Positions 6,782 to 52,928 of a DNA stretch of 64,000 bases are shown one piece after another. Origin of the DNA: Sphaerolaimus hirsutus (Eukaryota > Nematoda > Chromadorea > Monhysterida > Sphaerolaimidae). Numbering within the stretch: position 1 is the first letter of the stretch; the number at the start of each line of letters is the position of its first letter. Location: the NCBI GenBank assembly GCA_964036195.1, contig CAXIWS010000275.1:62001-126000 (forward strand). Direction: 5' to 3'. Below the pieces are notes generated by a model that made no database searches, was not told the DNA's origin, and worked only from the letters and a program-made list of their open reading frames with translations. A program made the position numbers and the translations under genes.

Positions 6782-8435
6782 TGTCAGATATTTTACGTTT
6801 TTACTAATTTTACTAATTTTACTAGTTTCCGTTTTTTACCACAAAATACGCCACTCGTCAAACCGCTGCGGCGGAGAATTGGTGTTTCCGGTCCCTTTGC
6901 GCTAAATGTGTGCGTAATTAAATAAATGGTTGTTTTTATGGTACGGGGATTTTACACGCAATTCAGGAACAGCACCAGTACCCCTTGGGGTCCTGGCAAG
7001 TTCCCGAGGATGGACACGGCAACTTACCAATCCCTTTCGTAATTGCAGCTGGCGTTTTACTTCAATAAGTCATTAATAAAATCGAAATTAAGCAATTAAT
7101 AAAATCAAATTAAAATTCAAAGCAGTTAGTATGCTTCAGGGGGACCAAGTTGATTTTCACGGGAACTTTATTTAGCGATTTAGTCAGAGTCAATTTCACA
7201 ATAGCACAAGTGAGTCGTAAAACCTCTAGTGGGTGTAAAAAATGCAAAATCAGCGCCTTTTATAATCACCAAAAATCTACCATATCATAACTGAATACTA
7301 ATTTTGAGACACAACAAATTGACTGTAATTAAAAATTATAAGGCATAGCATTGATCACTGGAAATGAACAGTATAACATATAAGGTGCAAGAAAAATAGG
7401 TAAGTGCTGGGAAGATGACAAAATGCAAAAATAAAATAAACTAATTAATGAAATGTAAATGTAATTAATCTAACGTAATCAAATATAAAAATATCTCAGT
7501 GGTGAGTGTCATAAACTGGGCTTTTATTCAGCAGTTACGGTACAATTCAGAACAGGTGGTGTGACACTATGTTATCACCCTGCGCCGCTTTAGGTAAAAT
7601 ATTTTATAGCGCGCCCGACCAAGGCCACTGGAAGAACGCTCATTGCGGGGGTTTATTCAAGGTTATTTCATTGCCGGGTAAGGGGTGGGAACTTCGGGCA
7701 TGAGCACACGCTACAAAGACACTAGCACTTTTGAGTTCACCAATCACCCTAGGTGATGGGAATAATTAATTGGACAGCTGTGCTCTTCACTTCATGATGT
7801 GCTCTGCATGTGTCTTGTTGGCGCATGTTGGTTGTAATTGATTTTTGCCACTTTCCCGCCCATTACCTAATCCTAAGTAAAAATGCACCTGGTCGGGGAA
7901 ATTTCCAAATGTTATCTGTCGGGGTGCTACAGAGTGCTTAACAAAGTGCACACCTTTAACTTAGCAAGAAATTTCAAAGCCTTTCTAGCCCATTTTCAGA
8001 CACTACACCTTTTTGAACAAATATGTAAACTAATCAAAAAATGGAAATTTGGAATAATCTGTCTAAAAGTACATTCGACAAAAATGGAAATAATCACTTC
8101 AGATCTACTTTACTTAAATGCAGGTAGAACAAATTTAATTAAGCAGAAGAAAATTCAAAACAATTAAAAAATACATGGGGATAATAACGTAATTAACGGA
8201 AAGAATTACTAATTAATTTCATGGCCGCAGTAGTTTCCATTTGGGCGTACCGTCCTGGGGCTGCAGCCTCGTTGGCGAATTGCAGTGCACAGCGAACCTC
8301 GCGTTCACTGTGACTTCCCTGTGCACCGCGGGTCTTCATTCGGTCACGCATGGTCGTTTTTGAGTTGTCGGAGTGCCTGCACAATGTTATCGTTACGTTT
8401 TTATGCATGACTGACTAGCCATATTTCCACCTACA
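6782..8435 (-). repeat. 3' LTR of element G
   Basis: This 1654-bp LTR runs TGTCAGATAT to CCACCTACA on the plus strand (TG...CA ends). It aligns throughout with 46277-47924 and 51281-52928 but differs from both at many sites the other two share, for example an extra ACTAATTTT unit near 6800. Many differences are C/T or G/A at CpG. A 71-codon ATG frame (8408 to 8193, minus) is preserved in all three LTRs. Confidence 0.85.
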
Positions 8436-9051
8436 ATCCCACCAGCCATTAATTTTTTACCTCTGGGCTAAAAACGGCATGTTCAGAAAAAGGTGTTTTA
8501 CACAGTTTTTGGTTACTCAAAATCATGCCTTTTCTGCAATTTTCGGTGGATGGCCGTGGCAGTCACATGCCCTGGGGGTGCAAATATGGCTCGTCTTCAT
8601 TCAAACTATGGCACCAGCTCTCTGCTGTGCCAGCTTTTTGCGCTCGCAACTTCGAAATTTTGGTTCCCGCACAGGGCTCGATGTGAGAAAAAGTTTTTTA
8701 TGTTTTTTTGCAAAACTGATTAAACTGAAACTTTAATTCGGACACTTCACAGCGTCTTGCCATTACTGGACGGGCAGTTTGGAATCAACATTCAAATTAC
8801 CTGCTTGACTGTCATGTCACAGTCCGTGCGTGTGAAAATTGATCGTCAACAAGATTTCCTAGTCGTTTCCATGGAATATTAGTTAGTATACTTGACTGAT
8901 CGTTTTTTGTTGAAAGTTGTCTGTTTCTTATTAAGTCAGATAGGTTGTTTTTTTTGCATGTAAAATATACTATGCTCTGAAACTTTACGATTTATTCTTG
9001 TTGAATCTGTTTCCCATCAATTTTCACAATTACCGTTTTCCATGTGGTGTT
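8436..9051 (-). other. 3' internal untranslated region of element G
   Basis: Lies between the helicase tail and the 3' LTR. On the minus strand it holds no long frame; an AATAAA-type sequence is near 8990. The expected polypurine tract beside the LTR is weak: only GGTGGGAT touches the LTR boundary. Confidence 0.5.
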
Positions 9052-9541
9052 CTACCTGCTCTGCTGGAGCATCTTCTGGGGGCAGCGGGATGGCTTCAAC
9101 AGCCTCGTTGTGTTCTGGTGGCGGCGAAGGGGCCCGGTCACGTTCTGCAGCGCCATGGCTGCCATGTCATTGCTGATGGGGGAATAGTCTTCATTAGGGC
9201 GGTAAACTGGCTCAACTACGGGCGCTACCTCCTCTGCCGCAGGCACTACTTCCTCCGCAGAGGAGTCAGAACTCGAGGTAGCGGTCTCCATATCGGACTG
9301 AATTTCTGCCTTCAATTCTTCCTCCAGCGCCGGGTATTTTTCAGGACCGACTAGTTCTTCTAAGTCGGCCCGCGGGCACCACTCGTCTGGCCAGAACGCC
9401 AGCAATGTTCCTCCAGATCTGGCCCGACTCGTAGGTAAAAATTCTCTCGGTCAGACTTTCGACTGTCAAAAACCAGCGAAAAACGTTGACCACAACATGG
9501 TCTCAGCATTGGCCACCACCACACGCACACATTTGGCACGG
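9052..9541 (-). pseudogene. C-terminal part of the element G helicase (motif VI end and acidic tail)
   Basis: Immediately inside the ACGG target duplication, the minus strand continues the helicase frame with AKCVRVVANAETMLW, the usual sequence after motif VI of Upf1-like helicases. The other half of motif VI lies at 19424-19480, across element A. That frame stops after about 25 codons. A second frame (about 9405 to 9052) then runs about 118 codons with an acidic, Ser/Glu-rich composition and ends in a basic segment. The frames are offset, so the gene is broken here by an indel, or an unseen intron exists. I take the acidic frame as the protein's tail because it is open and has no other owner. 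Confidence 0.6.
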
Positions 9542-9914
9542 TGTTGCACCCACGGGGCTCAGAGCAGTGGCAGTCTGTACCTGGGGTGCTATTCGACTTC
9601 ATGAGCCTCAGCAATGTGGAGCTGAGGTCACTTGGTGCCGACAAAGGCGAGGAGTGGAGGCATTTGGAGTGCGCTGTGGAATTATTATTTTGGCACCGTC
9701 GCCATGCGACACGTTCCTCAGGTTGTTATATTAACTTCATTTACTGAAGTGCAAAAGAGAACAGGCAAAAGAACTGAACTGGTTAATGCACACAAACAGC
9801 CATTTATAAAGGATAGGCTGAAACATAAAGTTTAGGGGTTCAGAAGTGAACCCAACACCTACTGAACTGCAGAATAAATACATGTAAATGATTCAATGTA
9901 GTGGAACTACAACA
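9542..9914 (-). repeat. 3' LTR of element A
   Basis: Starts TGTTGCACCCACGGGG and ends TGGAACTACAACA. It matches 19050-19419 almost base for base apart from ATT present once more near 9685. ACGG precedes it. Confidence 0.9.
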
Positions 9915-9931
9915 GTCCCCCCCCCCCAAGT
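9915..9931 (-). promoter_or_regulatory. Polypurine tract of element A
   Basis: On the minus strand the sequence next to the 3' LTR reads AACTTGGGGGGGGGGAC, a G-rich polypurine run in the position where plus-strand DNA synthesis is primed in LTR retroelements. This fixes the element's orientation. Confidence 0.7.
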
Positions 9932-10092
9932 TCACCCTACTGGGGGAACTGACAGAAGACAAAGGAGAAAAATAAATGGAGCCAATAAAAAACAAATTCA
10001 CATAAAATATTCAAAATTTTACAAAATCACATTCAAATCAAATCATCCACATTTGTCAAATCATCCTGTTTTCTTTTGCATCTGCCATAACT

Positions 10093-10795
10093 TTACATCC
10101 TTTGACAGGGATAAGTGTTGCCCAGGGTGTGGAATGGTCCAGTGCTGTGCCACATTTTCTTATTCCAGAAGATCCGTGAGGGGTGCTTTCTGGCTTCTGG
10201 TTGGGTGGTACTGGTAATGACTGTGTAGTCTTTCCTGGGGATCCTGGTGGCTGCCATCCAGTTGCCCGAATATGCATGGTCTGAGTGCACAATTGATGGC
10301 TGCTTCACATCTTGCATGTGCTGCACACTGCTAGACTTGTGTGGGGGGTCAGTCGATGGGAGCGGGGCTTGCAGGGAAGGGCATTCTGATGCTGGCCAGT
10401 GGTGTATCTCCTGAACCTGGTGGACACAGCACCCAAAGTCAGTGGATGAGGTCGGGGCATCCATGTTGCTGCAAACAACCTTCAGAGCCAGTGTCTCTTC
10501 AGGATTTTCCAGTGTCTCTTTATATTCTTGTGCCAGTCTTTCCAGCTCATGGTGGGTGGTGCGCACTATCTGTAGTGGTCCCCAAATCGCTGCTCCTCCA
10601 ATCAAGAGTGGGTGTCCTGCTGGGAGGAATTCCATCACTTTCACAATTGCTGGCAGGGTGTCGCTGTGCCACTGGCCATCTGGTGTTTGATGTCTGACTT
10701 TCATATCGTAGATCCGTAAGCAGTCCTGCTTAATTATGTGTCCCGCAGTGCAGATATGGCCATTTGTGAATGGGCGGAATTTTGCGCGTTCTTTC
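10093..10795 (-). CDS. Element A protease, second half, with C-terminal extension
   Basis: Resumes the protease after the nested Penelope-like element. Early residues read FTNGHICTAGH, and PLLIGGAAI near 10590-10610 is the hydrophobic-Gly motif that pairs with the DTG loop of retropepsins. About 150 further residues follow, rich in Ser, Pro and His, with no known domain, ending at a TGA at 10093. No RT follows; the polypurine tract is only about 160 bp away. The first half, with the catalytic DTG, lies at 16935-18869. Confidence 0.65.
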
Positions 10796-10801
10796 TTTCA
10801 A

Positions 10802-10857
10802 CGTAAATCAACGTATTAATTTAAAAATTTTTTTAAATTAATACGTTGATTTATGAC
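10802..10857. repeat. Inverted repeat at the left edge of the Penelope-like element
   Basis: AAATCAACGTATTAATTTAAA is followed, after a few A/T bases, by its complement leading into the pseudo-LTR. The arms are about 24 bp. The left arm is an inverted copy of the pseudo-LTR start. Confidence 0.75.
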
Positions 10858-11389
10858 GTCATTGTACCACTGTTGTCACTTGTTGTTACTGTATTTATAA
10901 ATAAAAAATAAATAAGACCAGTTTGCGGTCGCGTGTTGATATTATCTGTTGAACAACGTGATGTTGGTTTTTCCAACATTTTATACCTTTGCAAATTTAT
11001 ATTGATATCTCAGGTACACACTTGTCACAAAAAATATTCGTCTCAGATTTTCTAGCGCGCACGTCACTCGAAAATGACGAATGGAAATCACGAGCTGCCG
11101 CCACTGAATCCTAGAGTGATTACGCCGCGAGCATGGGGTGCGAAAGAGCTGAAAAGGTATGGCGGATGGAGGGTAAGTTAGCTAGGTAACTTTCTGGCTT
11201 GAACACGAAGTTTTTCGGTTTTAAATTTTGATAATTGTGAGCTGATCGGGTTGCGGCAGACAAAACGCTCAATGTACAGCGAGGTGCCGCACATGAGCGT
11301 TTTGGTGAACAGTTTGGATTAGCAACCATTCATTACTTTGTGCGAGGGACCAAAGGCGTCCCACCTGCCAAAATTACTTTTTAATTTGG
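10829..11389 (+). repeat. Left pseudo-LTR of the Penelope-like element
   Basis: Begins TTTTTTAAATTAATACGTTG and ends CTTTTTAATTTGG, matching 16371-16934 with a few substitutions (for example ATTCGTCTC versus ATCCGTCTC) and a 3-bp indel. It contains AATAAAAAATAAAT near 10898. The region after it (11390-11790) is non-coding leader with no feature recognised. Confidence 0.85.
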
Positions 11390-11793
11390 TTTTATCTGTT
11401 TCCGCTATGCTTCGTGAGGGAAGACCCAGAGCAAGCAGATCTGATTATACCTAGTCATTTTTGTTATAGTTTACCTTTTCTAGGATTGTATAGTGTTGTA
11501 CCTTTGTTTAATCTTGTTAATTACTTATTTAACTACTGATGCTTATACCTTGTGTCTCTGAGCATCAGTACTTGTTTTCGGGACCACATGCCTTGTGCCT
11601 CTGTGTCTCCCTTTTTTGTACTCGCATGCCTCTGGCCTCTGTGTGTACATTTTTACCACTTAAAAGCCTAACCAATAAAACCGAAAATAACAAAATTCTT
11701 AATTTTTCGCTTTTTTGATTTATAAATTCACATCAGTTTAATTTCAATTTTCCCCCCCTTTTTTTCCAGCCCACGCTGCCCACTTATGAGCAG

Positions 11794-12249
11794 TTGTGGG
11801 CACGCACAGTGGACATCGAAAGAGAGATAAGGGGTAAAAATTTAATTTTTCACGGTTTTGGAAAAAATCATAATTTCAAACGTGCTGATTGGAAAGAAAT
11901 TGCTGCCGAAATATTCTCTGCGTGCGGTTTTGACACAGAGAGTAAAGAATGGAAAGATATTTCGGAATTGCAAATGCGCGGGGGTGCCATTGTGTTCAAA
12001 TTTGGCCACGCTGAAACTTGTTCAACTATTATCCGGTCACCCCTACCCCCGGGCACTTTAATCAGGGGTAAAAAATTGACCTCGAGCAAAGATAAAACCC
12101 CCGAGGAAAGAGAATGGTCCAGTTACGCCGTCGATAGGTGTAACTGGTTTAATGACGCACAAACGGAATTTGACGCGCGGTGGCGCGATGATCAAGTGTG
12201 TAAATATTTGATATTTACATATTTATTAAAATGTTTTGTTTTTATTTAG
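11794..12249 (+). CDS. ORF1-like protein of the Penelope-like element, part 1
   Basis: 151 codons, with an open frame continuing upstream of the ATG. The protein reads like a nucleic-acid binding ORF1: an IRGKNLIFHGFGKN strand, then RGGAIVFKFGHAETC and a basic RGKKLTSSKDKTPEERE segment, reminiscent of the RNA-recognition fold in non-LTR ORF1 proteins. That is inference from the pattern only. The frame ends in AT-rich sequence (12199-12250) that starts GTGTAAAT and ends TTTATTTAG, so a ~52-bp intron is possible. Two further frames (12274-12615 and 12681-13142) continue the region. Confidence 0.5.
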   Translation: MWARTVDIEREIRGKNLIFHGFGKNHNFKRADWKEIAAEIFSACGFDTESKEWKDISELQMRGGAIVFKFGHAETCSTIIRSPLPPGTLIRGKKLTSSKDKTPEEREWSSYAVDRCNWFNDAQTEFDARWRDDQVCKYLIFTYLLKCFVFI

Positions 12250-12273
12250 ATGAATAATTCTTAAAAATCGAAG

Positions 12274-13142
12274 GTGATGTTGAAACCGCGTGGCGCCGAC
12301 CGGGCTTCTAAAGCGGACTGGCTGTTTTTGGCGGATTTCGAAGCCAAATTCAAGGATCAGATTGAGTTTGGGCGCAATAACCCAAGCGACGAAACGAAAC
12401 GCCGAATGGCCGGCCGCGCTAAACTTGGCAAACGCAACGCGCCTGCTGAAGGTGCCATGGACACTTCTGGAGCCGGCGCCTCTTCTAATTCGGCACCTAT
12501 GGCACCCACAGGTGCGCTGGACTCAGCCCCTCTGGCGTTGTTTACTGATATTTTACAAATTAGCCCTAAATGTGAGTATTTTCAGACATTTTTGCGACAC
12601 CTGATGGTAAACTGAATGTAAAAATATCCGAGAAAACACCGACGGACGTTTTTCAATCACCTGAAGTTGTAGAAGAAAATGTGGAAAATGCTGAAAATGA
12701 TAATTGTGATAATTTTGTGACGGTTACTCGAAAACGAGTGTTGGCTCGAACGGGTTCAACTCCCCACCCTGCAGATAAAGTGGGAAAAGCGGGCTCTGTG
12801 ACACCTAAATCTGTAAATTCCGTGAGCTCACCGCGCTGCAAAGGGAGGGGGTTCAATGAGTTTTTGTCACAAAACGGCACCCTGAGATCAACTACTTCTA
12901 CACCGGACTCTGTTGTATCCAATTCTTTTCATGATTTCAGGGGCCGGGGCTTTTCACCGGAATTCGCTAAGTTGAATGGTTGTTTGCGCGCAAGTGTTGA
13001 AAGTTTGGGTGAAATTAGTGTGTTGGATCGGGTTGGCACGGCGCCAAGGCGCAGTGTTAGATTGGCTTCCCTCCCAAATCAAGATTATCTCAACCTACAT
13101 ACAGGCGCACGCCCCAGGTTCCGCGGTGGAAAGGGTGGCTGA
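12274..13142 (+). CDS. ORF1-like region of the Penelope-like element, parts 2 and 3 (two frames)
   Basis: The first frame (12274-12615) is basic and Ala-rich (RRMAGRAKLGKRN) and ends in a Pro/Ala-rich stretch. The second (open from about 12600, first ATG 12681, stop at 13142) is Ser/Thr/Arg-rich with two similar KGRGFNEF and RGRGFSPEF motifs and a basic end RPRFRGGKGG, suggesting RNA binding. GTGAGTATTTTCAG lies at the frame change near 12572; it looks like splice signals but is too short for an ordinary intron. The frames may belong to one spliced or frameshifted gag-like protein. No domain is recognised with certainty. Confidence 0.4.
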
Positions 13143-13372
13143 TGATTGGAGTATTTATTTACGTTTTTTCCGGCACTCTGCTTAGGTGATATTTATATTT
13201 TACATTCGTTTAGGAATTTGGCATGCCCTTAGCCAGGTGTGCTAGTTTATTCGCTTAGATGAATTTATTTTTAAAAAATTTCTTTGTTACTTGTTGATAT
13301 CCCCAAATGGTAGACAAGCAGTTGCGGTGATCGAAGTGATTTTTACATTATTTTTCAACCTTATTTTTACGA

Positions 13373-16300
13373 ATGTCATTTATGAAAATGCATCTGTTGA
13401 TACATAGTCCCTTACTTTACAAAGACCCTGGGCAGCACAAAACCCCTCTTCCTATGGCAATTGAACTTGATACAAACTCAACTCAAAATGCCTTGGAAGG
13501 GATTCCGCTGTCTTATCGCATTTCCGGTCGTATTTTCGCTTTTCAAAATTGTCAAGATTTTTTGGGTCTGAAACGTTCAGGTAAACTTGCTTGGCAACTG
13601 GATCTGACCCATAATACCCTTTACTGTGTCGACAGATTGTCAGGGACACCAACACAGGCCTGCGGCAGGGGACGCTGCCTTACCTGCCAACAAATTGACA
13701 CATCTTGTTACTTTCAATCAAACGTCTCAAAGGTTTGTTTTACATTCGCTGACCCGTGTAATCCTACCTGCTGCCTTACCAAGAGGGTGGTATATTTAAT
13801 TAATTGTACCTGTGGCTTTCAGTATATAGGGGAAACTAAGCATAGTTTACATAAAAGGTTTTCTCAACATCGTAGTGCCATTTCACGTAAATCACACACC
13901 AATAAGTTGTATTCACATTTTACAAATAATGATAATTGCAACTTTAACAATGTAACAATTCGCGTAATTTCCAGAATTCCAGAATGCGATGAGAATTTTT
14001 CCTCAAAAACTTCACTTTTCACGGAAATAGAATTCTTTTGGATAAGGGTACTTTTTACCGCTTTTCCTTTCGGTTTAAATCAGAAAATAAAAGGTTTAGG
14101 CTTAATTGACAATGTAAATTTGAACAAGGATGTTAAATATTCACTTCCTTTTTTTGATGCTAGCTTTCCACGATTTCCTAGAAATCGACCTGAAACTTAT
14201 AACACAAATAAATACGTTTTTTCAGAAAACGACATTACTCAGTTAAATAGTCCTGCAGACGTATTTCAATTTTTACGTCATTTACCTAAATCAAAATTTG
14301 GGTTATGTGTACAACTTTTTACTAAATGTCGGTCGGAAAATACAATTTCAACTGTTATTTGGGATTGTCTGAGATATGGAGTTGAAGCTCGTAGACGCAC
14401 CTTTTTTGTAAAACTTAAAAAACGCGTTGAAAACCCAGTGTTTGTGAACCTTCAACATGACTCCCCCTCAGATGACAACATTGCCATATCGATTTTCCGA
14501 CAGAGGAGAATGTCAAAATGCCTAAATGATGCTCAGCTGAAACTACTAGAACGTGTGTCCCTGAAAGTTAGTTATGCAGCCCCGTTGGGATTAAAATTCT
14601 GTAATCACACTTCTTTTTTAAAATCATTGGATCAAAAAACAATTTGTGAGACTATGGAAAGAAAGTGTCCTTGTAAATGTAATTCACCCTTCTGGGACAG
14701 CAACCACAAACATATTTTAACTGGGGACATAAATATCGTGGATAATGCTGAACTTAGAGAGCTTTTCAGTTTTGGCACCAACTATAGAATTGCACCAGAA
14801 CCCAATATTTCACTGACATTTCACAAATATGTAGATGTTCTTAATCAATTAATTGTTTTGTTGAGTAACGTAGAAAATCAACAAAATAATTTGACCATTT
14901 TTCGCGAGCTTGGATTGAAGGCGATAAAGTGTAAAATGCGAACTTTTAACATTGACGCGAATCGCTTTAGAAAATATTCCCTCAATTCGGATTTGATAAA
15001 ATGTTTAGCAAAACTTCATGAATGGTTGGTAGTCACTGTAATAGATAAAGCGTCAAATACATATGCTTTTCAATGCAAAAAACTGTATCTGTTTCAGCAC
15101 TGTAAAGAGCTTGGTATTGTAAATATCACTTCAGATAAAACTAAATTTGGTAATAGCACTTATGTTTTTCATACTGATAATAAACAGGAAATTGAAAATA
15201 TTATGGAATCTCACCTGATGTTAAATAATGAGTTTGAAGCTGATTTAAAAAGATTTGAGCGTAAATTTCCACTATTGTACGGAATTCCGAAATTCCATAA
15301 ATCACCAATTAAATATCGCTTCATAGCAGGTTCAAAAACGAGCACAGTTAATGGGATGGCATGGATTTTACATCTGATTCTGGTGGACATTCAAAAACGA
15401 CTCAAGATGTATAATGAAGCAACAGTTGCCAATTCAGGTTATAATGGTTTTTGGATTGTTGCCAACAGTGGGGAAGCAATTGAAAAGTTAAAAACGGCGG
15501 GTGAAATTACTTTTATAGCTTCCTCTGATTTTTCCAATGCGTATACTACGCTTCCTCATACTGCAATTCGTTTTTGTATTTCAAGTCTTCTTAAATTAAT
15601 TATGAAAGAAAAAATTTATTCAATATCAAAAACTAAAGCTTCGTTAAAATCTATACATCAAATTTCAAACCGTGATAAATCCCTTTTTTCTTGCCAAAAG
15701 TGTATTTATCTGCTTAATACGCTGTTAAATGAAACGTATGTTTCATTTGGCCAAATGTTATTTAAACAGCACACTGGAATAATTATGGGCAGTTCTGTTT
15801 CCCCGGAACTGTGCAATTTAACTCTGGCTTATATGGAATTTGCTTTCATGAGAGATAAAAATAATAGCGTAGACGCTAAATATCTAAATAATCACGTTTT
15901 TAGATACATCGACGATACTCTTTACTACAATGTCCCAAGATATTTTGAAATTTCAAAGAAAATTTATGATGTCGCTTTAACACTTAATGAAGAATTATTG
16001 GACAATGGCAAAAGAGCTCATTTTCTAGATCTGGATATTACCTTAGATCCGGTGCTCAATATAAAACTCTATAATAAAACTGACGAATTCAATTTTGCAA
16101 TAATTTCAATGCCTTATATACATTCAAATTTACGAGAAAATGTTTGTTATAATGTGTGGTATGCTCAACTACTTAGGTTCTGTTCAATTTGCTTTCAGAA
16201 AAATGACGCAAATATCAGAATAAGTAGTTTATTGAGCATTTTCAGACATCATGGTTACACAGAAGATAAATTAAGGAAATACTTTTTTAGATTTTCTTTT

Positions 16301-16378
16301 AAATACACTAGTCTGCTTTATAAATACAATATTTTTAACAAAAGTGACATAGTTCAGTGGGCAAATTCAATTTTTTAA
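13373..16378 (+). CDS. Penelope-like GIY-YIG endonuclease / reverse transcriptase, 1001 codons
   Basis: ATG-initiated and intact. A Cys pattern (CGRGRCLTC near residue 97, then CNPTCC near 129) precedes a GIY-YIG nuclease: VVYLINCTCGFQYIGE at about 139-154, with following Arg and His in KRFSQHRS. The RT core follows: LYGIPKFHK and YRFIAGSK (about 635-656), SDFSNAYTTLPH (about 718), MGSSVSPELCN (about 805), the catalytic FRYIDD (about 844) and FLDLDI (about 884). This matches Penelope-like RTs, which lack RNase H and are related to telomerase RT. Canonical elements carry the nuclease at the C-terminus; N-terminal placement defines the Naiad/Chlamys group. The stop codon falls at the very start of the right pseudo-LTR. 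Confidence 0.9.
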   Translation: MSFMKMHLLIHSPLLYKDPGQHKTPLPMAIELDTNSTQNALEGIPLSYRISGRIFAFQNCQDFLGLKRSGKLAWQLDLTHNTLYCVDRLSGTPTQACGRGRCLTCQQIDTSCYFQSNVSKVCFTFADPCNPTCCLTKRVVYLINCTCGFQYIGETKHSLHKRFSQHRSAISRKSHTNKLYSHFTNNDNCNFNNVTIRVISRIPECDENFSSKTSLFTEIEFFWIRVLFTAFPFGLNQKIKGLGLIDNVNLNKDVKYSLPFFDASFPRFPRNRPETYNTNKYVFSENDITQLNSPADVFQFLRHLPKSKFGLCVQLFTKCRSENTISTVIWDCLRYGVEARRRTFFVKLKKRVENPVFVNLQHDSPSDDNIAISIFRQRRMSKCLNDAQLKLLERVSLKVSYAAPLGLKFCNHTSFLKSLDQKTICETMERKCPCKCNSPFWDSNHKHILTGDINIVDNAELRELFSFGTNYRIAPEPNISLTFHKYVDVLNQLIVLLSNVENQQNNLTIFRELGLKAIKCKMRTFNIDANRFRKYSLNSDLIKCLAKLHEWLVVTVIDKASNTYAFQCKKLYLFQHCKELGIVNITSDKTKFGNSTYVFHTDNKQEIENIMESHLMLNNEFEADLKRFERKFPLLYGIPKFHKSPIKYRFIAGSKTSTVNGMAWILHLILVDIQKRLKMYNEATVANSGYNGFWIVANSGEAIEKLKTAGEITFIASSDFSNAYTTLPHTAIRFCISSLLKLIMKEKIYSISKTKASLKSIHQISNRDKSLFSCQKCIYLLNTLLNETYVSFGQMLFKQHTGIIMGSSVSPELCNLTLAYMEFAFMRDKNNSVDAKYLNNHVFRYIDDTLYYNVPRYFEISKKIYDVALTLNEELLDNGKRAHFLDLDITLDPVLNIKLYNKTDEFNFAIISMPYIHSNLRENVCYNVWYAQLLRFCSICFQKNDANIRISSLLSIFRHHGYTEDKLRKYFFRFSFKYTSLLYKYNIFNKSDIVQWANSIF

Positions 16379-16934
16379 ATTAATACGTTGATTTATGACG
16401 TCATTGTACCACTGTTGTCACTTGTTGTTACTGTATTTATAAATAAAAAATAAATTATAAGACCAGTTTGCGGTCGCGTGTTGATATTATCTGTTGAACA
16501 ACGTGATGTTGGTTTTTCCAACATTTTATACCTTTGCAAATTTATATTGATATCTCAGGTACACACTTGTCACAAAAAATATCCGTCTCAGATTTTCTAG
16601 CGCGCACGTCACTTGAAAATGACGGATGGAAATCACGAGCTGCCGCCACTGAATCCTAGAGTGATTACGCCGCGAGCATGGGGTGCGAAAGAGCTGAAAA
16701 GGTATGGCGGATGGAGGGTAAGTTAGCTAGGTAACTTTCTGGCTTGAACACGAAGTTTTTCGGTTTTAAATTTTGATAATTGTGAGCTGATCGGGTTGCG
16801 GCAGACAAAACGCTCAATGTACAGCGAGGTGCCGCACATGAGCGTTTTGGTGAACAGTTTGGATTAGCAACCATTCATTACTTTGTGCGAGGGACCAAAG
16901 GCGTCCCACCTGCCAAAATTACTTTTTAATTTGG
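16371..16934 (+). repeat. Right pseudo-LTR of the Penelope-like element
   Basis: Second copy of the 561-564-bp direct repeat. Its first bases overlap the last codons of the RT ORF, and it ends CTTTTTAATTTGG at the junction with element A coding sequence. The 69-codon minus-strand frame inside (16665-16874) is identical to that in the left copy and is taken as a by-product of repeat identity. Confidence 0.85.
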
Positions 16935-18869: not shown

Positions 18870-19033
18870 TTTCGTGATGTGGGGTCGCTCTTGTGGCGCG
18901 TTTGCACTTGTTGCTTCTGGACAGGTGCGTGGGCTGCTGTTGTTCAGCAGTGCCACCAGTTTGATTTGGGGGTGCCGCCAGTGTCGATATGGGACAGTCA
19001 GGGGCGGGTGGGTTCAGGCTCAATGTGTTTCAA

Positions 19034-42286: not shown

Positions 42287-42301
42287 TCGTACCTCTCCTC
42301 A

Positions 42302-43079: not shown

Positions 43080-43397
43080 TAAATCATGCATTCTGATCCT
43101 GCGTAAAAAGGCCAGCCAGGTGGTTCGAAACAGATATCCTCTTTTGGTTCGCATGTACGCCCATGGTTTAATCCAGAATTTGCGCTCCTGTGCAAGCACA
43201 TACATTCCAGCTGTCCGCTCTGGTTCCTCATTTGGCTCTGGGACCAGCTCGTCTGGTTCTTCTGACTCTAATTCCAAGCCTTGCATCACAGGGATTAATT
43301 TATTAATGGGACATATCATCATGCATCGATCATCTTTGCGTACTCTCATAGTCGCTCCAGTACCACCGGTCACTTGCGTGGGGTTCAGCGACTCTAC
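43080..43397 (-). CDS. Element G gag-env junction segment in the -1 frame
   Basis: After the poly-C tract the frame -1 to gag is open for about 105 codons to the TGA at 43077. It encodes SLNPTQVTGGTGAT, an acidic ESEEPDELVPEPNEEPE stretch and a basic, aromatic end (KPWAYMRTKRGYLFRTTW). In gag copy 2 the same frame is present but gains a TGA at 48165-48167 where this copy has CGA (43149-43151). Confidence 0.6.
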
Positions 43398-45664: not shown

Positions 45665-46256
45665 TCCAGGCGATATGGATGAGCTGCCCGCGCTCCACCC
45701 CAGTGTCCTTCAAAGCTTTGACCACTTACCTGTCTTTCCTGCTTCCTTTCCTGCAGCTCATCTGCTTGTCCCAGGCGCTTCTTCTGCTTCTGCGCTGGAC
45801 GTTAGCTGCTGCGCCGCTGCTGGTACAGCCGGCGTCTTCCACTGACTAAAACTGTCTGGCGTGGGCCTTCGCCTCCAACCGTTGATAACCTGATTACCGG
45901 TGTATCCTTCGCTGTCTGCCCAGACCAGTGTTGACTTTCACTCTCCTCTAGTGCTTCCGGCGCGTCTGTTTCAGGGTTAACCAAATCGTTCGACTCACTG
46001 TCTTCTACTTGACCCTCAGCTGCAGCGGGTTGTGCGTCCACTTCTCGCCCAGCTTTCCGTTGCCGCGCGCGCTTTCATGCTTGATTTTGCTTTTCCAACG
46101 CAGCGTGCCAAACTTGTTCTATATTGTCCCCTTGTAAGCTTGCTGGCCCTCTCGATCTCAATTCCCTTTGGGGTGATTCGTTATCAGTGAAGCCGTTTTT
46201 TGTAGAGGCGTTGATCAGGTGCCCCCAACAGAAAACTTAATGACTTGCTTAGGAAA
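45665..46256 (-). other. Element G leader with short ORF and splice-donor-like site
   Basis: On the minus strand CAG|GTAAGT, a consensus splice donor, lies at 45728-45733 upstream of gag and is kept in the other copy (50731-50736). It may serve a spliced mRNA for downstream genes. A 79-codon acidic frame without ATG (46041-45802) precedes it. The frame is kept in the duplicate at 51045-50806 with one residue change, but is unlike any known gene. Confidence 0.45.
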
Positions 46257-46276: not shown

Positions 46277-47924
46277 TGTCAGATATTTTACGTTTTTACA
46301 AATTTTACTAGTTTCCGTTTTTTACCACAAAATACGCCACTTGTCGAACCGCTGCGGCGGAAAATTGGTGTTTCCGGTCCCTTTGCGCTAAATGCGTGCA
46401 TAATTAAATAAATGGTTGTTTTTATGGTACGGGGATTTTACACGCAATTCAGGAACAGCACCAGTACCCCTTGGGGTCCTGGCAAGTTCCCGAGGATGGA
46501 CATGGCAACTTACCAATCCCTTTCGTAATTGCAGCCGGCGTTTTACTTCAATTAGTCGTTAATAAAATCGAAATTAAGCAATTAATAAAATCAAATTAAA
46601 ATGCAAAGCAGTTAGTAATGCTTCTGGGGGACCAAGTTGATTTTCACGGGAATTTTATTTAGCGATTTAGTCAGAGTCAATTTCACAATAGCACAAGTGA
46701 GTCATAAAACCTCTAGTGGGTGTAAAAAATGCAAAATCAGCGCGTTTTATAATCACCAAAAATCTACCATATCATAACTGAATACTAATTTCAAGACACA
46801 ACAAATTGACAGTAATTAAAAATTATAAGGCAAAGCATTGATCACTGGAAACGAACAGTATAACATATAAGGCACAAGAAAAATAGGTAAGTGCTGGGAA
46901 GATGACAAAATGCAAAAATAAAATGAACTAATTAATGAAACGTAAATGTAATTAATCTAACGTAATTAAATATAAAAATATCTCAGTGGTGAGTGTCATA
47001 AACTGGGCTTTTATTCAGCAGTTACGGTACAATTCAGAACAGGTGGTGTGACACTATGTAATCACCTCACGTCGCTTTAGGTATAATATTTTATAGCACG
47101 CCCGACCAAGGCCACTGGAAGAACGCTCATTGCGGGGGTTTTATTCAAGGTTGTTTCATTGCCGGGTAAGGGGTGGGAACTTCGGGCATGAGCACACGCT
47201 ACAAAGACACTAGCACTTTTGAGTTCACCAATCACCCTAGGTGATGGGAATAATTAATTGGCACAGCTGTGCTCTTCACTTCATGATGTGCTCTGCATGT
47301 GTCTTGTTGGCGCATGTTGGTTGTAATTGATTTTTGCCGCTTTCCCGCCCATTATTTAATCCTAAGTAAAAATGCACCTGGTCGGGGAAATTTCCGAATG
47401 TTATCTGTCGGGGCGCTACAGAGTGTTTAACAAAGTGCACACCTTTAACTTAGCAAGAAATTTCAAGGCCTTTCTAGCCCATTTTCAGACACTACACCTT
47501 TTTGAACAAATATGTAAACTAATCAAAAAATGGAAATTTGGAATAATCTGTCTAAAAGTACATTCGACAAAAATGGAAATAATCACTTCAGATCTACTTT
47601 ACTAAAATGCGTGTAGAACAAATTTAATTAAGCAGAAGAAAATTCAAAACAATTAAAAAATACATGGGGATAATAACGTAATTAACGGAAAGAATTACTA
47701 ATTAATTTCATGGCTGCAGTAGTTTCCATTCGGGCGTACTGTCCTGGGGCTGCAGCCTCATTGGCGAATTGCAGTGCACAGCGAACCTCGCATTCACTGT
47801 GACTTCCCTGTGCACCGCGGGTCTTCATTCGGTCACACATGGTTGTTTTTGAGTCGTCGGAGTGCCTGCACAAAGTTATCGTTACATTTTTACGCATGAC
47901 TGACTAGCCATATTTCCACCTACA
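46277..47924 (-). repeat. Internal LTR of element G
   Basis: 1648 bp, TGTCAGATAT to TTCCACCTACA. Nearly identical to 51281-52928 and more distant from 6782-8435. Its outer edge (47924) abuts env-region sequence TACCGGTCT rather than a target duplication. Confidence 0.85.
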
Positions 47925-48409: not shown

Positions 48410-50707
48410 CTACAGGGGGGGGGGTTTGTTTACCTGTTGCATCAGTTGCATGTAAGTTTGCATGCACCCATCCGGTCCCATAGCCATCCAGCCCTGCGAC
48501 GTTTGATATGCCATCATCTGTGGTTGCATGGGCATGTTGTCGGCCCTTTGAATCGTCTGTGCTGGCTGTGCAGGCATTGGCTGCGTTGGTTGCCACTGTG
48601 GGTAGGCATATTGCATGGGCATCATACCTGGTTGCACTGCTTGGGCTTGATCATTCCTCTGATAACCACGTTGTCCTCCGCCGCGCCCACGTCCATTTCC
48701 TCTGAACGCTCCGCCGCCACGGCTCCTTCTGACATACTGTTCCCTTTGCTCAGGAGTGAGTTTAGGACATTTGTACCTAATATGCTCTTCAGAACCACAT
48801 TCCCAGCACCCTTTGTCAAATTTGCGCGGGGGCAATTTAGGGGGGTCCCTATTTAATCCCAAAAGTTTACCTTCCAGCGCGCCCAATTGTGCCAGTTTCT
48901 TTGCTATCTCTTGATGCACAGAGTCAAATTTGGCAACATGTTCAGTCATCTTCTGTTCCATTGTTTCTAGCGTCTTATCGGCCTGAGATGGTAATCCAGC
49001 CATTGTGGGCATGTTAAGTGCCATCAACCTGTCCATTACCTTGTCAGTAGCGTTGGCAACCACATCCTGTTTGGACTTCTCACCATTATTCTGGCTCTGT
49101 TCCGCTTCCAAGAAGCTCTCCTGCGCACATGTGTTGTCAACCATCTCTTTCCATGTGATCGACGCCGTAACTTGTACATTGCGTCGAATTCCATTCCTCA
49201 ATCCCCCATGGAATTGTATCATGCATGTGTCGCCACGTTTTTCATGCCCCATGCCTGGATAGGCGCGCTTTATTGATTTTTCCAAATGTACCGCCCATTC
49301 CAGCACTGACTCATTTGGGCCCTGTCGCGTCTCAAAAATCTCCCTCTGTGCATGATGCTGATCATTTGGATTTTCATAGAATCTCTCCAATGCCAGCATC
49401 ATGTCCTTGTAATTTAACACACGTAATTCCCTGTATCGGGTGTTGAAAATAGCCCTTGCACTGCCTTTCAAAAATGATTTTACCAGCGGTTTTCGCTCCT
49501 GTAATTTTATGCGCAGCGCATCACATACCGTATCCCAGCTCCGTCTCCATTCCCTGAAAACCTCATTGGGTTTGCCACGATAGTAACCACATTGTTGCGC
49601 CAAAGCTGTAATGACTGCCACATTGCTTTGTTCTAGTTGCCAATTTTGCCCCGGGTCCGTAGGCATTCCCACCTCTGTTACGGCCGATGAGCTCCTTGAA
49701 GACGCCGGTGAGGGGGATCGGGCGCGCCGCTGCGTAACAACTCTTACCTGATTCGTTCCGGCTGCCGAGGGTGGTGCAGCAGCTACCGCCGATGATTGCA
49801 AGGGCGCCGCTTGACCATTGGTCAGTATTATAGCCTGTTGACCACTAGCCAGTGAATTCCCTCCCAGAGTCGCATTTTGCAAGGCCTGATTGTGCTGTTG
49901 ATATGCTGCCTCCAAATCGGCTATGTCATCACTATGTAGGCTATGATGTGCTTCAAACTCCTGTAGATAATGTTCTACCCTTGGTACTTCGGCCACTGGG
50001 TCACTTCCCCACAAGTTCATAGCAATTTTGATTAGTGCCACCATACACAGATCCCCTACTTCACCATCTTGTGAAAATGCACCAACCGGTCTCGCCTTGC
50101 TCATCATGTTTGCCCATTTCTTTGCCGCTTCACATGCCTTTTTGGGCATCCATTGTGCGCAGCTCGGCGTCCCTTGCACCGGGTCGAGATCCATTATAGT
50201 AGCTTGATAGATTATCTGCGGTTCTGCGACATTTGCATATCTATCGGCCAACACCGGATCCGTCATCTGGTTCGCTCCGTTGTTTGCCATTCTGACTTTG
50301 GGACTGGTAATAATTATCATGGGGGGATTACTCAAAGTTTCAGCCCTAATTAACTGGCGTCTCGCCCTTGCAGTTGCGCTCTGCGACCACGACTGGTCAC
50401 TGGATAAGTTTCGGCTACTGTTGCCTGACACATCCCTAGGCGTCGAAGTGCTCTTCGGTGGGCTTAACTGCAGCACTGGGGAATTGTCTCCACTCTGCGC
50501 CGCTGTCTCAAGTAGCTCCGCTACGGTATTTTCAATTAAGGGAAACTGATCTGCAGTAGCTTCAAGCTCAGCTGCAATCACAGGGTAATCACGTTGGATT
50601 AACGGCTGCCCTAGAGGCTCGCTGTCACCAACGTATCCGTCTGAACCGACTTCAGAACCTGATTGCACTCCAGGCGATATGGATGAGCTGCCCGCGCTCC
50701 ACCCCAA
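48410..50707 (-). CDS. Element G gag (copy 2)
   Basis: Same protein as copy 1 with a handful of substitutions, including the zinc knuckle, Arg/Gly box and Pro/Gln tail. The open frame starts after a TGA with no ATG. It ends three Pro codons and CTG after AACAAA because the C run is only 10 long, followed by T. This copy has a leader, PBS and LTR but no downstream genes of its own. Confidence 0.85.
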   Translation of the reverse strand: MGWSAGSSSISPGVQSGSEVGSDGYVGDSEPLGQPLIQRDYPVIAAELEATADQFPLIENTVAELLETAAQSGDNSPVLQLSPPKSTSTPRDVSGNSSRNLSSDQSWSQSATARARRQLIRAETLSNPPMIIITSPKVRMANNGANQMTDPVLADRYANVAEPQIIYQATIMDLDPVQGTPSCAQWMPKKACEAAKKWANMMSKARPVGAFSQDGEVGDLCMVALIKIAMNLWGSDPVAEVPRVEHYLQEFEAHHSLHSDDIADLEAAYQQHNQALQNATLGGNSLASGQQAIILTNGQAAPLQSSAVAAAPPSAAGTNQVRVVTQRRARSPSPASSRSSSAVTEVGMPTDPGQNWQLEQSNVAVITALAQQCGYYRGKPNEVFREWRRSWDTVCDALRIKLQERKPLVKSFLKGSARAIFNTRYRELRVLNYKDMMLALERFYENPNDQHHAQREIFETRQGPNESVLEWAVHLEKSIKRAYPGMGHEKRGDTCMIQFHGGLRNGIRRNVQVTASITWKEMVDNTCAQESFLEAEQSQNNGEKSKQDVVANATDKVMDRLMALNMPTMAGLPSQADKTLETMEQKMTEHVAKFDSVHQEIAKKLAQLGALEGKLLGLNRDPPKLPPRKFDKGCWECGSEEHIRYKCPKLTPEQREQYVRRSRGGGAFRGNGRGRGGGQRGYQRNDQAQAVQPGMMPMQYAYPQWQPTQPMPAQPAQTIQRADNMPMQPQMMAYQTSQGWMAMGPDGCMQTYMQLMQQVNKPPPL
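48415..48424 (-). promoter_or_regulatory. Candidate -1 frameshift site (10-base C run), gag copy 2
   Basis: Minus strand reads AACAAA, then 10 C, then TGTAGAG. The offset to the GTAGAG frame is again 2 modulo 3, the same as in copy 1, although the run is 13 bases shorter and a T has been gained. Confidence 0.5.
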
Positions 50708-51260
50708 TGTCCTTCAAAGCTTTGACCACTTACCTGTCTTTCCTGCTTCCTTTCCTGCAGCTCATCTGCTTGTCCCAGGCGCTTCTTCTGCTTCTGCGCT
50801 GGACGTTAGCTGCTGCGCCGCTGCTGGTACAGCCGGCGTCTTCCACTGACTAAAACTGTCTGGCGTGGGCCTTCGCCTCCAACCGTTGATAACCTGATTA
50901 CCGGTGTATCCTTCGCTGTCTGCCCAGACCAGCGTTGACTTTCACTCTCCTCTAGTGCTTCCGGCGCGTCTGTTTCAGGGTTAACCAAATCGTTCGACTC
51001 ACTGTCTTCTACTTGACCCTCAGCTGCAGCGGGTTGTGCATCCACTTCTCGCCCAGCTTTCCGTTGCCGCGCGCGCTTTCATGCTTGATTTTGCTTTTCC
51101 AACGCAGCGTGCCAAACTTGTTCTATATTGTCCCCTTGTAAGCTTGCTGGCCCTCTCGATCTCAATTCCCTTTGGGGTGATTCGTTATCAGTGAAGCCGT
51201 TTTTTGTAGAGGCGTTGATCAGGTGCCCCCAACAGAAAACTTAATGACTTGCTTAGGAAA
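50708..51260 (-). other. Element G leader, copy 2
   Basis: Duplicate of 45665-46256, with the conserved splice-donor-like CAGGTAAGT and the acidic 79-codon frame (51045-50806). Confidence 0.5.
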
Positions 51261-51278
51261 CCACTCGCTACGCTACCA
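51261..51278 (-). promoter_or_regulatory. Primer-binding site of element G (outer copy)
   Basis: TGGTAGCGTAGCGAGTGG on the minus strand, two bases from the LTR end, identical to 46257-46274. Confidence 0.6.
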
Positions 51279-51280
51279 GT

Positions 51281-52928
51281 TGTCAGATATTTTACGTTTT
51301 TACAAATTTTACTAGTTTCCGTTTTTTACCACAAAATACGCCACTTGTCGAACCGCTGCGGCGGAAAATTGGTGTTTCCGGTCCCTTTGCGCTAAATGCG
51401 TGCATAATTAAATAAATGGTTGTTTTTATGGTACGGGGATTTTACACGCAATTCAGGAACAGCACCAGTACCCCTTGGGGTCCTGGCAAGTTCCCGAGGA
51501 TGGACACGACAACTTACCAATCCCTTTCATAATTGCAGCCGGCGTTTTACTTCAATTAGTCGTTAATAAAATCGAAATTAAGCAATTAATCAAATCAAAT
51601 TAAAATGCAAAGCAGTTAGTAATGCTTCTGGGGGACCAAGTTGATTTTCACGGGAATTTTATTTAGCGATTTAGTCAGAGTCAATTTCACAATAGCACAA
51701 GTGAGTCATAAAACCTCTAGTGGGTGTAAAAAATGCAAAATCAGCGCGTTTTATAATCACCAAAAATCTACCATATCATAACTGAATACTAATTTCAAGA
51801 CACAACAAATTGACAGTAATTAAAAATTATAAGGCAAAGCATTGATCACTGGAAACGAACAGTATAACATATAAGGCACAAGAAAAATAGGTAAGTGCTG
51901 GGAAGATGACAAAATGCAAAAATAAAATGAACTAATTAATGAAACGTAAATGTAATTAATCTAACGTAATTAAATATAAAAATATCTCAGTGGTGAGTGT
52001 CATAAACTGGGCTTTTATTCAGCAGTTACGGTACAATTCAGAACAGGTGGTGTGACACTATGTAATCACCTCACGTCGCTTTAGGTATAATATTTTATAG
52101 CACGCCCGACCAAGGCCACTGGAAGAACGCTCATTGCGGGGGTTTTATTCAAGGTTGTTTCATTGCCGGGTAAGGGGTGGGAACTTCGGGCATGAGCACA
52201 CGCTACAAAGACACTAGCACTTTTGAGTTCACCAATCACCCTAGGTGATGGGAATAATTAATTGGCACAGCTGTGCTCTTCACTTCATGATGTGCTCTGC
52301 ATGTGTCTTGTTGGCGCATGTTGGTTGTAATTGATTTTTGCCGCTTTCCCGCCCATTATTTAATCCTAAGTAAAAATGCACCTGGTCGGGGAAATTTCCG
52401 AATGTTATCTGTCGGGGCGCTACAGAGTGTTTAACAAAGTGCACACCTTTAACTTAGCAAGAAATTTCAAGGCCTTTCTAGCCCATTTTCAGACACTACA
52501 CCTTTTTGAACAAATATGTAAACTAATCAAAAAATGGAAATTTGGAATAATCTGTCTAAAAGTACATTCGACAAAAATGGAAATAATCACTTCAGATCTA
52601 CTTTACTAAAATGCGTGTAGAACAAATTTAATTAAGCAGAAGAAAATTCAAAACAATTAAAAAATACATGGGGATAATAACGTAATTAACGGAAAGAATT
52701 ACTAATTAATTTCATGGCCGCAGTAGTTTCCATTTGGGCGTACTGTCCTGGGGCTGCAGCCTCATTGGCGAATTGCAGTGCACAGCGAACCTCGCATTCA
52801 CTGTGACTTCCCTGTGCACCGCGGGTCTTCATTCGGTCACACATGGTTGTTTTTGAGTTGTCGGAGTGCCTGCACAAAGTTATCGTTACATTTTTACGCA
52901 TGACTGACTAGCCATATTTTTACCTACA
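51281..52928 (-). repeat. 5' LTR of element G
   Basis: 1648 bp, TGTCAGATAT to TTTACCTACA, followed outside by target duplication TTAT (52929-52932). It is the outermost end of the composite. Confidence 0.85.

Follow-up and report, generated by a model that had tools for sequence, protein, structure and literature searches.

A repeated, env-bearing Ty3-type retroelement family of Sphaerolaimus hirsutus encodes a predicted Sen1/UPF1-like helicase under purifying selection

In the established view, the helicases used by LTR retroelements and retroviruses come from the host. The planarian giant Ty3 element Burro exceeds 30 kb and is described with MATH, BIR, ankyrin, BCL2-like and dUTPase-like domains, no helicase being named in that description; its env regions match mononegavirus fusion glycoproteins and lie in frame between gag and protease, and the elements have been discussed as possible proviruses (PMC6431247). 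A relative in Dugesia has a midasin-like AAA ATPase region (PMC6431247). LTR elements of bdelloid rotifers are reported to carry an enzymatic ORF3 (GDSL esterase, DEDDy exonuclease) and, in one lineage, a paramyxovirus-type env; in the text of that paper "helicase" occurs once only, in the reference list (PMC5408684). Gypsy elements of 25 kb in Phalaenopsis have an ORF for an AlkB RNA demethylase, and the word "helicase" is absent from the main text of the 121-genome survey (PMC9289625). Among non-LTR elements, insect LINEs (TRAS/R1) have a viral SF1 helicase domain in ORF1 or ORF2, which is reported to be conserved (PMC5563155, PMC6338049, PMC4686597). A selected helicase gene belonging to a Ty3-type LTR element was not found reported in the literature searched. 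Here we describe such a gene in the nematode S. hirsutus. Positions refer to the window, the whole stretch of 64,000 nucleotides that was analysed.

The insertion and its gag, env and pol genes

The block at 6782..52928 (minus strand) is a single insertion of a decayed Ty3-type LTR element. The 3' LTR (6782..8435, minus strand, 1654 bp) and the 5' LTR (51281..52928, minus strand, 1648 bp) share TGTAGG...TGACA limits and 96.66% identity, and a 4-bp target site duplication, TTAT (ATAA on the element strand), stands at 52929..52932 and 6778-6781. When joined, the flanks read through the empty site as an uninterrupted host repeat that has further copies elsewhere in the window. The best region matched the joined flanks with a score of 75, against 36 for the upstream and 42 for the downstream flank alone, and the best score with 100 mononucleotide-shuffled downstream flanks was 67. 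These results confirmed the boundaries in the original prediction, namely matching LTR ends, the TTAT duplication and the read-through repeat. TG...CA LTRs with a short duplication are as in Ty3 elements (Metaviridae). Of three other genomic copies checked for duplications, C9 was flanked by ATAG and the flanks of C15 and C274 were unreadable.

Two clean secondary insertions, neither part of the Ty3 element, cut the helicase gene. One is a BEL/Pao element with env (23884..36478, plus strand; 1311-bp LTRs 99.39% identical, duplication CCCAT, Pfam matches) and the other is element A (9542..19419, minus strand; duplication ACGG, terminal repeats). A Penelope-like element sits inside element A. 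There are also two duplications: a 5-kb tandem duplication of LTR and gag (copies 42910-47924 and 47925-52928), containing an internal LTR (46277..47924, minus strand, 99.46% identical to the 5' LTR), and a 1.3-kb duplication within the helicase (19553-20834 and 20857-22138; 1282 aligned bases identical). Subtracting all four from the gross 46 kb leaves a net element of 17,357 bp. Of the originally predicted "giant Ty3-type" element, the type was upheld and the size was not.

The gene order of the window copy is gag, env with protease, RT-RNase H, integrase, helicase and 3' LTR, all genes being on the minus strand. The gag ORF at 43394..45709 matched PNMA (9e-6) and Retrotrans_gag (3.6e-5); its duplicated upstream copy (48410..50713) differs at 3 synonymous and 9 nonsynonymous codons of the 763 compared. 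Env and aspartic protease share a single frame (40079..42298), with matches to Monjiviricetes_fusion (29.3 bits, cutoff 27), to gag-asp_proteas (0.0048, below cutoff) and, weakly, to retroviral-like aspartic protease 1 (0.024). The link between env and gag passes through frame changes in the window copy. Reverse transcriptase and RNase H occupy two frames at 38149..40078 (RVT_1 5e-19, RT_RNaseH_2 2.9e-26), followed by integrase at 36849..38162 (Integrase_H2C2 4.1e-15, rve 8.8e-10). The best PDB matches of the reverse transcriptase were 4ol8, which we take to be Ty3 (1.5e-35), and the Ty3 Gag-Pol structure 7q5b (9e-35), with the next at 1.6e-20; by this ranking the enzyme appears nearest to Ty3 RT. 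The order protease-RT-RNase H-integrase, as in Ty3 elements, was found in the window and in the genomic copies L010 and L011.

The helicase gene and its class

As predicted, the pieces of the helicase follow one another in order on the minus strand, downstream of integrase and upstream of the 3' LTR. The first piece (36481..36621) opens with an ATG at 36621, and the complete ORFs of copies L077 and L078 begin with the same residues. It is followed by an N-terminal domain piece (23082..23883) with neither Pfam nor PDB match, and by a piece with motif I, the P-loop (22042..23130), which has no Pfam match on its own. Motifs II-V are present in the upper (20857..22153; AAA_12 1e-9 for ORF 20732-22153) and lower (19553..20834; AAA_12 2.2e-16 for ORF 19431-20939) copies of the 1.3-kb duplication. 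The two halves of motif VI (19426..19554 and 9475..9541), each without a Pfam match on its own, are separated exactly at element A, where the original prediction had placed the split at the ACGG duplication; L010, which lacks element A, reads unbroken through the motif. The C-terminal tail lies at 9055..9450. The window copy and three older copies are broken, and the ORF is 1323 aa in L077 and L078, the two copies followed from end to end. A possible 3' splice site at 36736..36736 (minus strand), a TG-rich tract followed by AG/G, lies 115 nt before the helicase ATG; tract and AG are kept in L010 and L011.

The predicted protein is an SF1B helicase of Sen1/UPF1-like type. AAA_12, the C-terminal RecA domain with motifs IV-VI, was matched at 8.1e-25 over profile positions 4-194 of 195, and AAA_11, the N-terminal RecA domain with motifs I-III, at 0.0012 (19.1 bits, cutoff 27) over profile positions 198-251 only. 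The P-loop, located by eye at residue 596, departs from the strict pattern and lies outside any Pfam match; the motifs stand in SF1 order, motifs I and II lying 289 residues apart. PDB matches of the helicase included a 5'-3' RNA helicase-like protein (8ftm, presumably Sen1) at 5.9e-6 and UPF1 at 0.076. No helicase emerged when the PDB was searched with the L010 frame of 999 aa or with window ORF 20732-22153, and window ORF 19431-20939 gave a helicase match of just 0.028. The N-terminal region of about 560 aa has no Pfam match, and the Cys-His/zinc domain of UPF1 and nidovirus helicases is absent, residues 1-560 containing 7 Cys and no Pfam zinc domain. Two other assignments were rejected: the IGHMBP2 family (TIGR00376; L010 frame at 6.4e-8 but 31.5 bits against a cutoff of 348.9) and the LINE-type viral SF1 helicase Viral_helicase1 (PF01443; 0.058, 13.6 bits against a cutoff of 21). 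The class originally proposed from motifs is retained, with two corrections: GDSKQL is motif III, and in the window copy motif II is without the canonical acidic pair kept in L010, L011, L012, L077 and L078.

A repeated family under purifying selection

The helicase search of the genome yielded 834 candidates. Ninety were scored and 88 of these lie outside the window, giving at least 88 further loci, in 69 of which a frame of 1300 aa or more stays open. Among the listed loci, 54 helicase-integrase pairs were on the same strand with a gap of 2301-2322 bp, and no other arrangement was present within 6 kb. LTR pairs were 15.86-16.33 kb apart in 15 of 17 cases; in the subset of loci compared, 11 of the 17 enclosed a helicase match, ending 1246-1255 bp before the 3' LTR. 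A search with the window LTR gave three further LTR pairs, all with the five helicase pieces ordered and adjoining the LTR. RT, integrase and env-protease lay upstream in two of them; in the third, L012, the covered stretch does not reach these genes. The LTR began exactly at the end of the conserved 3' leader in four of five sampled copies and was not found there in L055. No helicase was seen in 17 of 20 long and 12 of 13 short LTR flanks, such LTRs being solo or 5'.

Whole-helicase dN/dS measured against an intact copy was 0.06-0.10, including 0.06 for L077-L078 (Sd 32.5, Nd 6.5). For the helicase core of older copies, five of six pairs gave 0.12-0.16 and the sixth, L011-L012, gave 0.31; the N-terminal part ranged from 0.12 to 0.46. 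Three pairs each gave 0.11-0.14 for RT, 0.10-0.21 for integrase and 0.08-0.16 for env-protease. Neutrality was rejected for the helicase (binomial P 2e-11 to 3e-43), and purifying selection on it is comparable in strength to that on pol and env. The helicase is therefore a selected gene of a repeated Ty3 family and not a one-off capture. The original prediction came with two checks, whether LTR-gag-env-pro-pol-helicase-LTR is a repeated unit and whether helicase dN/dS is below 1 between copies; integrase-helicase-LTR recurs at constant spacing and dN/dS is far below 1, and both results support the prediction. As contrary evidence it had named family copies without the helicase together with a helicase standing alone elsewhere as a host gene. 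This was not borne out: of 20 integrase loci sampled from those with no helicase match listed, 19 had the helicase at its expected place and one (L071) did not. For a helicase-only host gene, the check covers just the 90 scored of the 834 candidates.

Trapping of a host gene or pseudogene by one insertion would fit the broken window copy, the AATAAA and A8 run past the helicase ORF, which recall a polyadenylated mRNA (pattern in 12 of 2000 mononucleotide shuffles), and the GC3 of 0.57-0.64 in the helicase pieces, above the 0.44-0.50 of gag, env, RT and integrase. As an account of the family it is refuted by the 88 other loci, the constant spacing to integrase and LTR and the strong purifying selection, and we give it almost no weight; the A-run and the composition may merely reflect the original, older capture. 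Nested elements abound in the region, and the helicase could in principle belong to another one lodged between integrase and LTR. That origin, equally far-fetched in our estimate, is refuted by the constant integrase-helicase-LTR spacing across copies and the surrounding LTR pairs. Moreover, no repeats bound the gene (the longest word common to both sides, 9 nt, was reached in 82 of 200 shuffles), and the helicase is itself split by both real nested elements.

Proposed role and comparison with known systems

We consider it reasonably probable that this is an env-bearing Ty3 family of about 17.4 kb, ordered LTR-gag-env-protease-RT-RNaseH-integrase-helicase-LTR, whose third gene, resident and under selection, is the 1323-aa SF1B (Sen1/UPF1-like) helicase, acting in trans on element RNA. 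Of the helicase identity and the selection we are nearly certain; the particular role, RNP or RNA remodelling in trans, is offered tentatively. The reading frame opens with an ATG of its own downstream of the integrase stop, and two other copies retain the acceptor-like site; for these reasons the helicase would be a protein in its own right, probably translated from spliced RNA. Since it is not part of a Gag or Pol fusion, action in trans is most likely: the helicase would be a putative ATP-driven RNP or RNA remodeller of the element's own transcript, which it may protect from, or steer past, host RNA surveillance and silencing. This role rests on argument, and ATP-dependent 5'-3' unwinding is the predicted activity.

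We favour trans-acting remodelling or protection of element RNA over help in reverse transcription, our second choice. In the latter case a helicase in or beside the particle would unwind RNA or displace strands ahead of RT on the 17-kb genome. The SF1B fold suits RNA/DNA unwinding, and constraint on the helicase is about equal to that on RT and integrase. Yeast RNA helicases have been cited as participants in Ty3 retrotransposition (PMC4686597). However, descriptions of the larger Ty3 elements Burro and Ogre name no helicase among the domains (PMC6431247), and an ORF distinct from gag and pol gives the helicase no built-in packaging; we regard this role as unlikely, if a serious contender. 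Less likely still is a cell-wide suppressor, one that interferes dominantly with RNA decay or small-RNA silencing in the host instead of handling the element's own RNA. Sen1 and UPF1 are RNA-surveillance helicases. A virus-derived SF1 helicase from a LINE is described as having moderately aided a suppressor-deficient plant virus in its movement (PMC4686597). Yet LINE helicases are of another, tobamovirus-like type, and the Viral_helicase1 match here is below cutoff.

There is a broader proposal, which we find possible but would not bet on: an infectious-type, env-bearing Ty3 lineage of animals with a Sen1/UPF1-type helicase as an essential replication or immune-evasion gene. If so, RNA handling, besides reverse transcription, would be element-encoded. 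A high-copy lineage that encodes a helicase selected on par with its polymerase is a natural system for the contribution of helicases to the life cycle, whether to processive copying, to RNA export and stability, or to evasion of RNA decay and silencing.

Compared with cellular SF1B RNA helicases (Sen1/senataxin, UPF1), the protein shares the full-length AAA_12 domain, the SF1 motif order and the best PDB matches; it differs in the long motif I-II interval, the N-terminal region without Pfam match and the missing Cys-His domain. As in the insect LINEs, a retroelement carries an SF1 helicase, but those are non-LTR elements, whereas here an LTR element has a separate ORF of Sen1/UPF1-like AAA_12 type. 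The bdelloid elements likewise place an extra enzyme ORF downstream of pol, and the Phalaenopsis elements are likewise large Ty3 elements in which one extra ORF encodes a captured enzyme that acts on RNA, although the host is a plant, the length 25 kb and the enzyme another. With the present family, the range of enzymes encoded by captured third ORFs extends to a helicase. Like Burro as described, the S. hirsutus family is Ty3-type with an accessory domain and an env with a fusion-glycoprotein match, placed between gag and protease and in one frame with protease. It differs from Burro in that its net length and LTR-pair distances stay below the 20 to 30 kb of giant elements, that MATH, BIR, ankyrin, BCL2-like and dUTPase domains had no Pfam match in the scanned window ORFs of the Ty3 element, and that a helicase ORF follows integrase. 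The Burro-type layout, with env in the middle, is thus seen in a more compact family that carries a helicase of its own.

Structure of the Ty3-type element

A single minus-strand LTR element of Ty3 type occupies block 6782-52928 of the window. The 3' LTR (6782-8435, 1654 bp) and 5' LTR (51281-52928, 1648 bp) both read TGTAGG...TGACA, are 96.66% identical, and are flanked on both sides by a 4-bp target site duplication (TSD), TTAT. When the flanks were joined, a host repeat with further copies within the window read through; the joined flanks scored 75, compared to 36 and 42 for the single flanks and a maximum of 67 in 100 shuffles. Dispersed GGCGCC-rich repeats also flank the element on both sides (3670-6575 and 55055-55116).

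Two later insertions, a BEL/Pao element (23884-36478, TSD CCCAT) and element A (9542-19419, TSD ACGG), split the helicase gene, and a Penelope-like element is nested within element A. In addition, a 5-kb LTR-gag unit is tandemly duplicated (5016 aligned columns with 29 mismatches and 13 gap columns), as is a 1.3-kb stretch of the helicase (0 mismatches across 1282 aligned bases). After subtraction of BEL, element A, and both duplications the net element is 17,357 bp. The 46 kb of the "giant" element originally predicted are therefore not its own size, and that part of the claim was rejected. The 5-kb duplication (42910-52928) starts precisely at LTR base 1, and the 5' and internal LTRs are 99.46% identical to each other, while either is only 96.7% identical to the 3' LTR. 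Both observations favour joining linked to integrase or RT, or later conversion, over random duplication.

Judging from its 1311-bp LTRs (99.39% identical), the BEL insertion is young. Over 26252-35125 it contains a 2529-aa gag-pol frame followed by an env ORF, the latter matching Monjiviricetes_fusion just under the cutoff (1.6e-6), the same Pfam class as the env of the Ty3 host element. No pol was recognised in element A, which is bounded by short terminal repeats; its 695-aa frame (16926-19013), without significant Pfam match, is perhaps a Gag. A GIY-YIG-like region in the Penelope-like element fell just under the cutoff (0.00061).

In the Ty3 element gag comes first (Pfam PNMA 9e-6, Retrotrans_gag 3.6e-5), followed by an env that matches the Monjiviricetes fusion type (29.3 bits against a cutoff of 27), demonstrated in the window and in two older copies, L010 and L011. 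An aspartic protease region lies in the frame of env (0.0048, under cutoff). RT, RNase H, and integrase follow in that order in Pfam, and the nearest PDB relative of the RT is Ty3. At the gag end (43394 and 48410), where the frame passes into the next ORF, the two gag copies have C tracts of unequal length; this is possibly a slippage site or simple length variation. In the window copy protease and RT share a frame that is interrupted between them by a stop codon (40079-40081), and at least one other copy reads through.

The helicase is a separate ORF downstream of the integrase, with its own ATG at 36621. In the window this copy is dead, and its pieces, all on the minus strand, are spread over several frames: the first at 36621-36481, the next at 23883-20857 with the duplicated part again at 20834-19553, then motif VI in two halves (19554-19426 and 9541-9475), and the tail to about 9055. 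Element A cuts motif VI exactly at its insertion point, and the predicted split was confirmed by L010, a copy without element A, in which the motif is unbroken in a 999-aa frame.

The helicase-bearing unit across the genome

We searched the 348.5-Mb assembly (762 contigs) to which the window belongs. With the window LTR as query at least 44 matches were obtained (40 of 660 candidates scored), three of them the window's own LTRs. The inner flanks of 20 matches were examined over 9.3-9.9 kb, and helicase pieces lay in order beside the LTR in three (L010, L011, and L012). These three are LTR pairs with spacings of 16.2, 16.6, and 21.3 kb, the last one tandem; LTR-pair divergence in the window and these older copies was 1.65-3.34%. 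The other 17 flanks had neither pol nor helicase on the examined side over this distance and may belong to solo LTRs or 5' LTRs. When 13 more LTRs were checked over 2 kb, one had a helicase (L042).

The helicase query (20732-22153) matched at all 90 scored places (834 candidates; E 6.8e-244 or better), 2 inside the window and 88 outside. Of the 88 outside loci, 69 have an open frame of 1300 aa or more, which measures 1332 aa in 38 of them. For the integrase query 96 of 2373 candidates were scored, among which related families may be included. By coordinates, 54 helicase-integrase pairs were found among the listed loci. In each pair the two share a strand and the helicase piece lies 2301-2322 bp downstream of the integrase; within 6 kb the two were never arranged otherwise at these loci. 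For 41 integrase loci no helicase was listed. At 20 of these the expected place was sampled, and the helicase was present in 19 and absent from one (L071).

An LTR 76-77% identical to that of the window begins exactly after a conserved 3' leader in four of five sampled copies; the fifth (L055) showed no LTR there. Used as a second query (40 of 610 candidates scored), this LTR yielded 17 pairs spaced 10-25 kb, 15 of them at 15.86-16.33 kb. In the subset of loci compared, the helicase lay inside 11 of the 17 pairs, and its match stopped 1246-1255 bp short of the 3' LTR. The match scores of the two LTRs within a pair were equal or nearly so, which suggests that the family was recently active.

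The constant integrase spacing and the regular LTR pairs show that integrase, helicase, and LTR form a repeated unit. A one-off capture is rejected by the fixed helicase-integrase spacing at the listed loci together with the helicase-containing LTR pairs, and a nested foreign helicase element by the constant spacing to both integrase and LTR.

Tandem arrangements were also observed. At L012/L050 (contig C274) a neighbouring copy has a tandem structure, with 3-4 helicase match sets within the examined stretch and a gag match past the lower LTR. Three same-strand LTRs at 15.87-kb steps (contig C6:7566655-7599049) look like two elements with a common middle LTR.

Identity of the helicase and selection on it

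Two loci, L077 and L078, encode an intact 1323-aa helicase in one unbroken frame from ATG. AAA_12 was matched over full length (8.1e-25), and AAA_11 (0.0012) and Viral_helicase1 (0.058) were under cutoff. In PDB the full ORF matched 8ftm, a 5'-3' RNA helicase-like protein that is presumably Sen1 (5.9e-6), and UPF1 (0.076); the match was clear with the full ORF only, shorter pieces being weak or empty. The NCBIfam IGHMBP2 family was matched far under its cutoff (7.7e-7 and 6.4e-8). Motifs I, II, III, IV, V, and VI, named by eye, lie at residues 596, 885, 916, 958, 1094, and 1142. Motif II is non-canonical in the window copy and canonical in the five other copies compared. Nothing significant matched the N-terminal ~560 residues, which contain few cysteines; the protein therefore lacks the zinc-domain layout of UPF1 and nidovirus helicases.

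In PADLOC the helicase matched MkoA, the Mokosh helicase (1.6e-16); we ascribe this to common AAA_12 ancestry and set a defence role aside. A nuclear localisation signal in the window's first helicase piece was dropped, as it is missing from the intact ORFs. The best PHROGs match was of unknown family (0.0088, nothing useful), and the predicted fold of the window's 502-aa helicase ORF was uninformative (pLDDT 34.3). No relatives were found in a viral contig collection (queries RT, integrase, env, and two helicase pieces), in a genomic contig collection (one helicase piece), or by tblastn against phages. The sole match in the contig scans, L001, was a 31-residue chance match on a phage-like contig.

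Pairwise dN/dS values (Nei-Gojobori) were calculated among the four older copies (window, L010, L011, and L012). For the helicase core they were 0.12, 0.13, 0.15, 0.14, and 0.16, and 0.31 for L011-L012, with a synonymous excess at binomial P of 2e-11 to 3e-43 under neutrality. The tail gave 0.11-0.24 and the N-terminal piece 0.12-0.46; the N-terminal values of 0.28-0.46 belong to L010 pairs, where the L010 alignment is broken into three, and the ratio was 0.08 once an intact ORF served as reference. The three pairs of window, L010, and L011 gave 0.11-0.14 for RT-RNase H, 0.10-0.21 for integrase, and 0.08-0.16 for env-protease. Since dS was similar in the helicase core (0.31-0.41, five divergent pairs), RT (0.26-0.46), integrase (0.24-0.33), and env-protease (0.32-0.46), these parts diverged together.

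Compared with the intact L077, whole-helicase dN/dS was 0.06-0.10 (L010, L011, L012, L078, and window 20854-23883), with the tail above the whole-gene value (0.11-0.18); L077 and L078 themselves differ by Sd 32.5 and Nd 6.5 in 1323 codons. Ratios between copies were below 1, and judged by the low values against L077 strong constraint acted on the helicase during replication of the family. The aligned helicase pieces contain 3 stops in L010, 3 in L011, and 7 in L012; those of the window have 0 stops and frame changes instead.

Expression, possible role, and known systems

A TG-rich, acceptor-like tract with AG (near 36736) lies 115 nt 5' of the helicase ATG and is kept in L010 and L011, so that the helicase could be expressed from spliced RNA. 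The helicase pieces have a GC3 of 0.57-0.64, as against 0.44-0.50 in gag, env, RT, and integrase, possibly a trace of separate origin. An AATAAA followed by an A8 run lies 3' of the helicase ORF (8955-8996; pattern in 12 of 2000 mononucleotide shuffles), a weak hint of descent from a captured polyadenylated mRNA.

Our tentative reading is that the unfused helicase would handle the element's RNA in trans, remodelling or protecting its own transcript. Action in reverse transcription seems somewhat less likely: the helicase is not fused to Gag or Pol, so that a trans-acting RNA handler fits better than a particle enzyme, and this handler is further favoured because descriptions of larger Ty3 elements name no helicase. 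That the helicase broadly interferes with host RNA decay or silencing we consider improbable. Handling of the element's own RNA is thus the role we prefer.

A DNA transposon, AcademH, reportedly carries a helicase. No LTR element with a helicase was found among the best-ranked open-licence papers (the best 2-20 of up to 2,684 per search), and passages of PMC4299795, PMC12477816, and PMC12210899 show none. Rotifers are known to have captured ORF3 enzymes (PMC5408684), orchids a captured extra-ORF enzyme (PMC9289625), and insect LINEs SF1 helicases (PMC4686597, PMC5563155, PMC6338049). The placement of env between gag and protease is common to Burro (PMC6431247) and the Ty3 element described here. 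The helicase is the biologically surprising gene of this LTR element.
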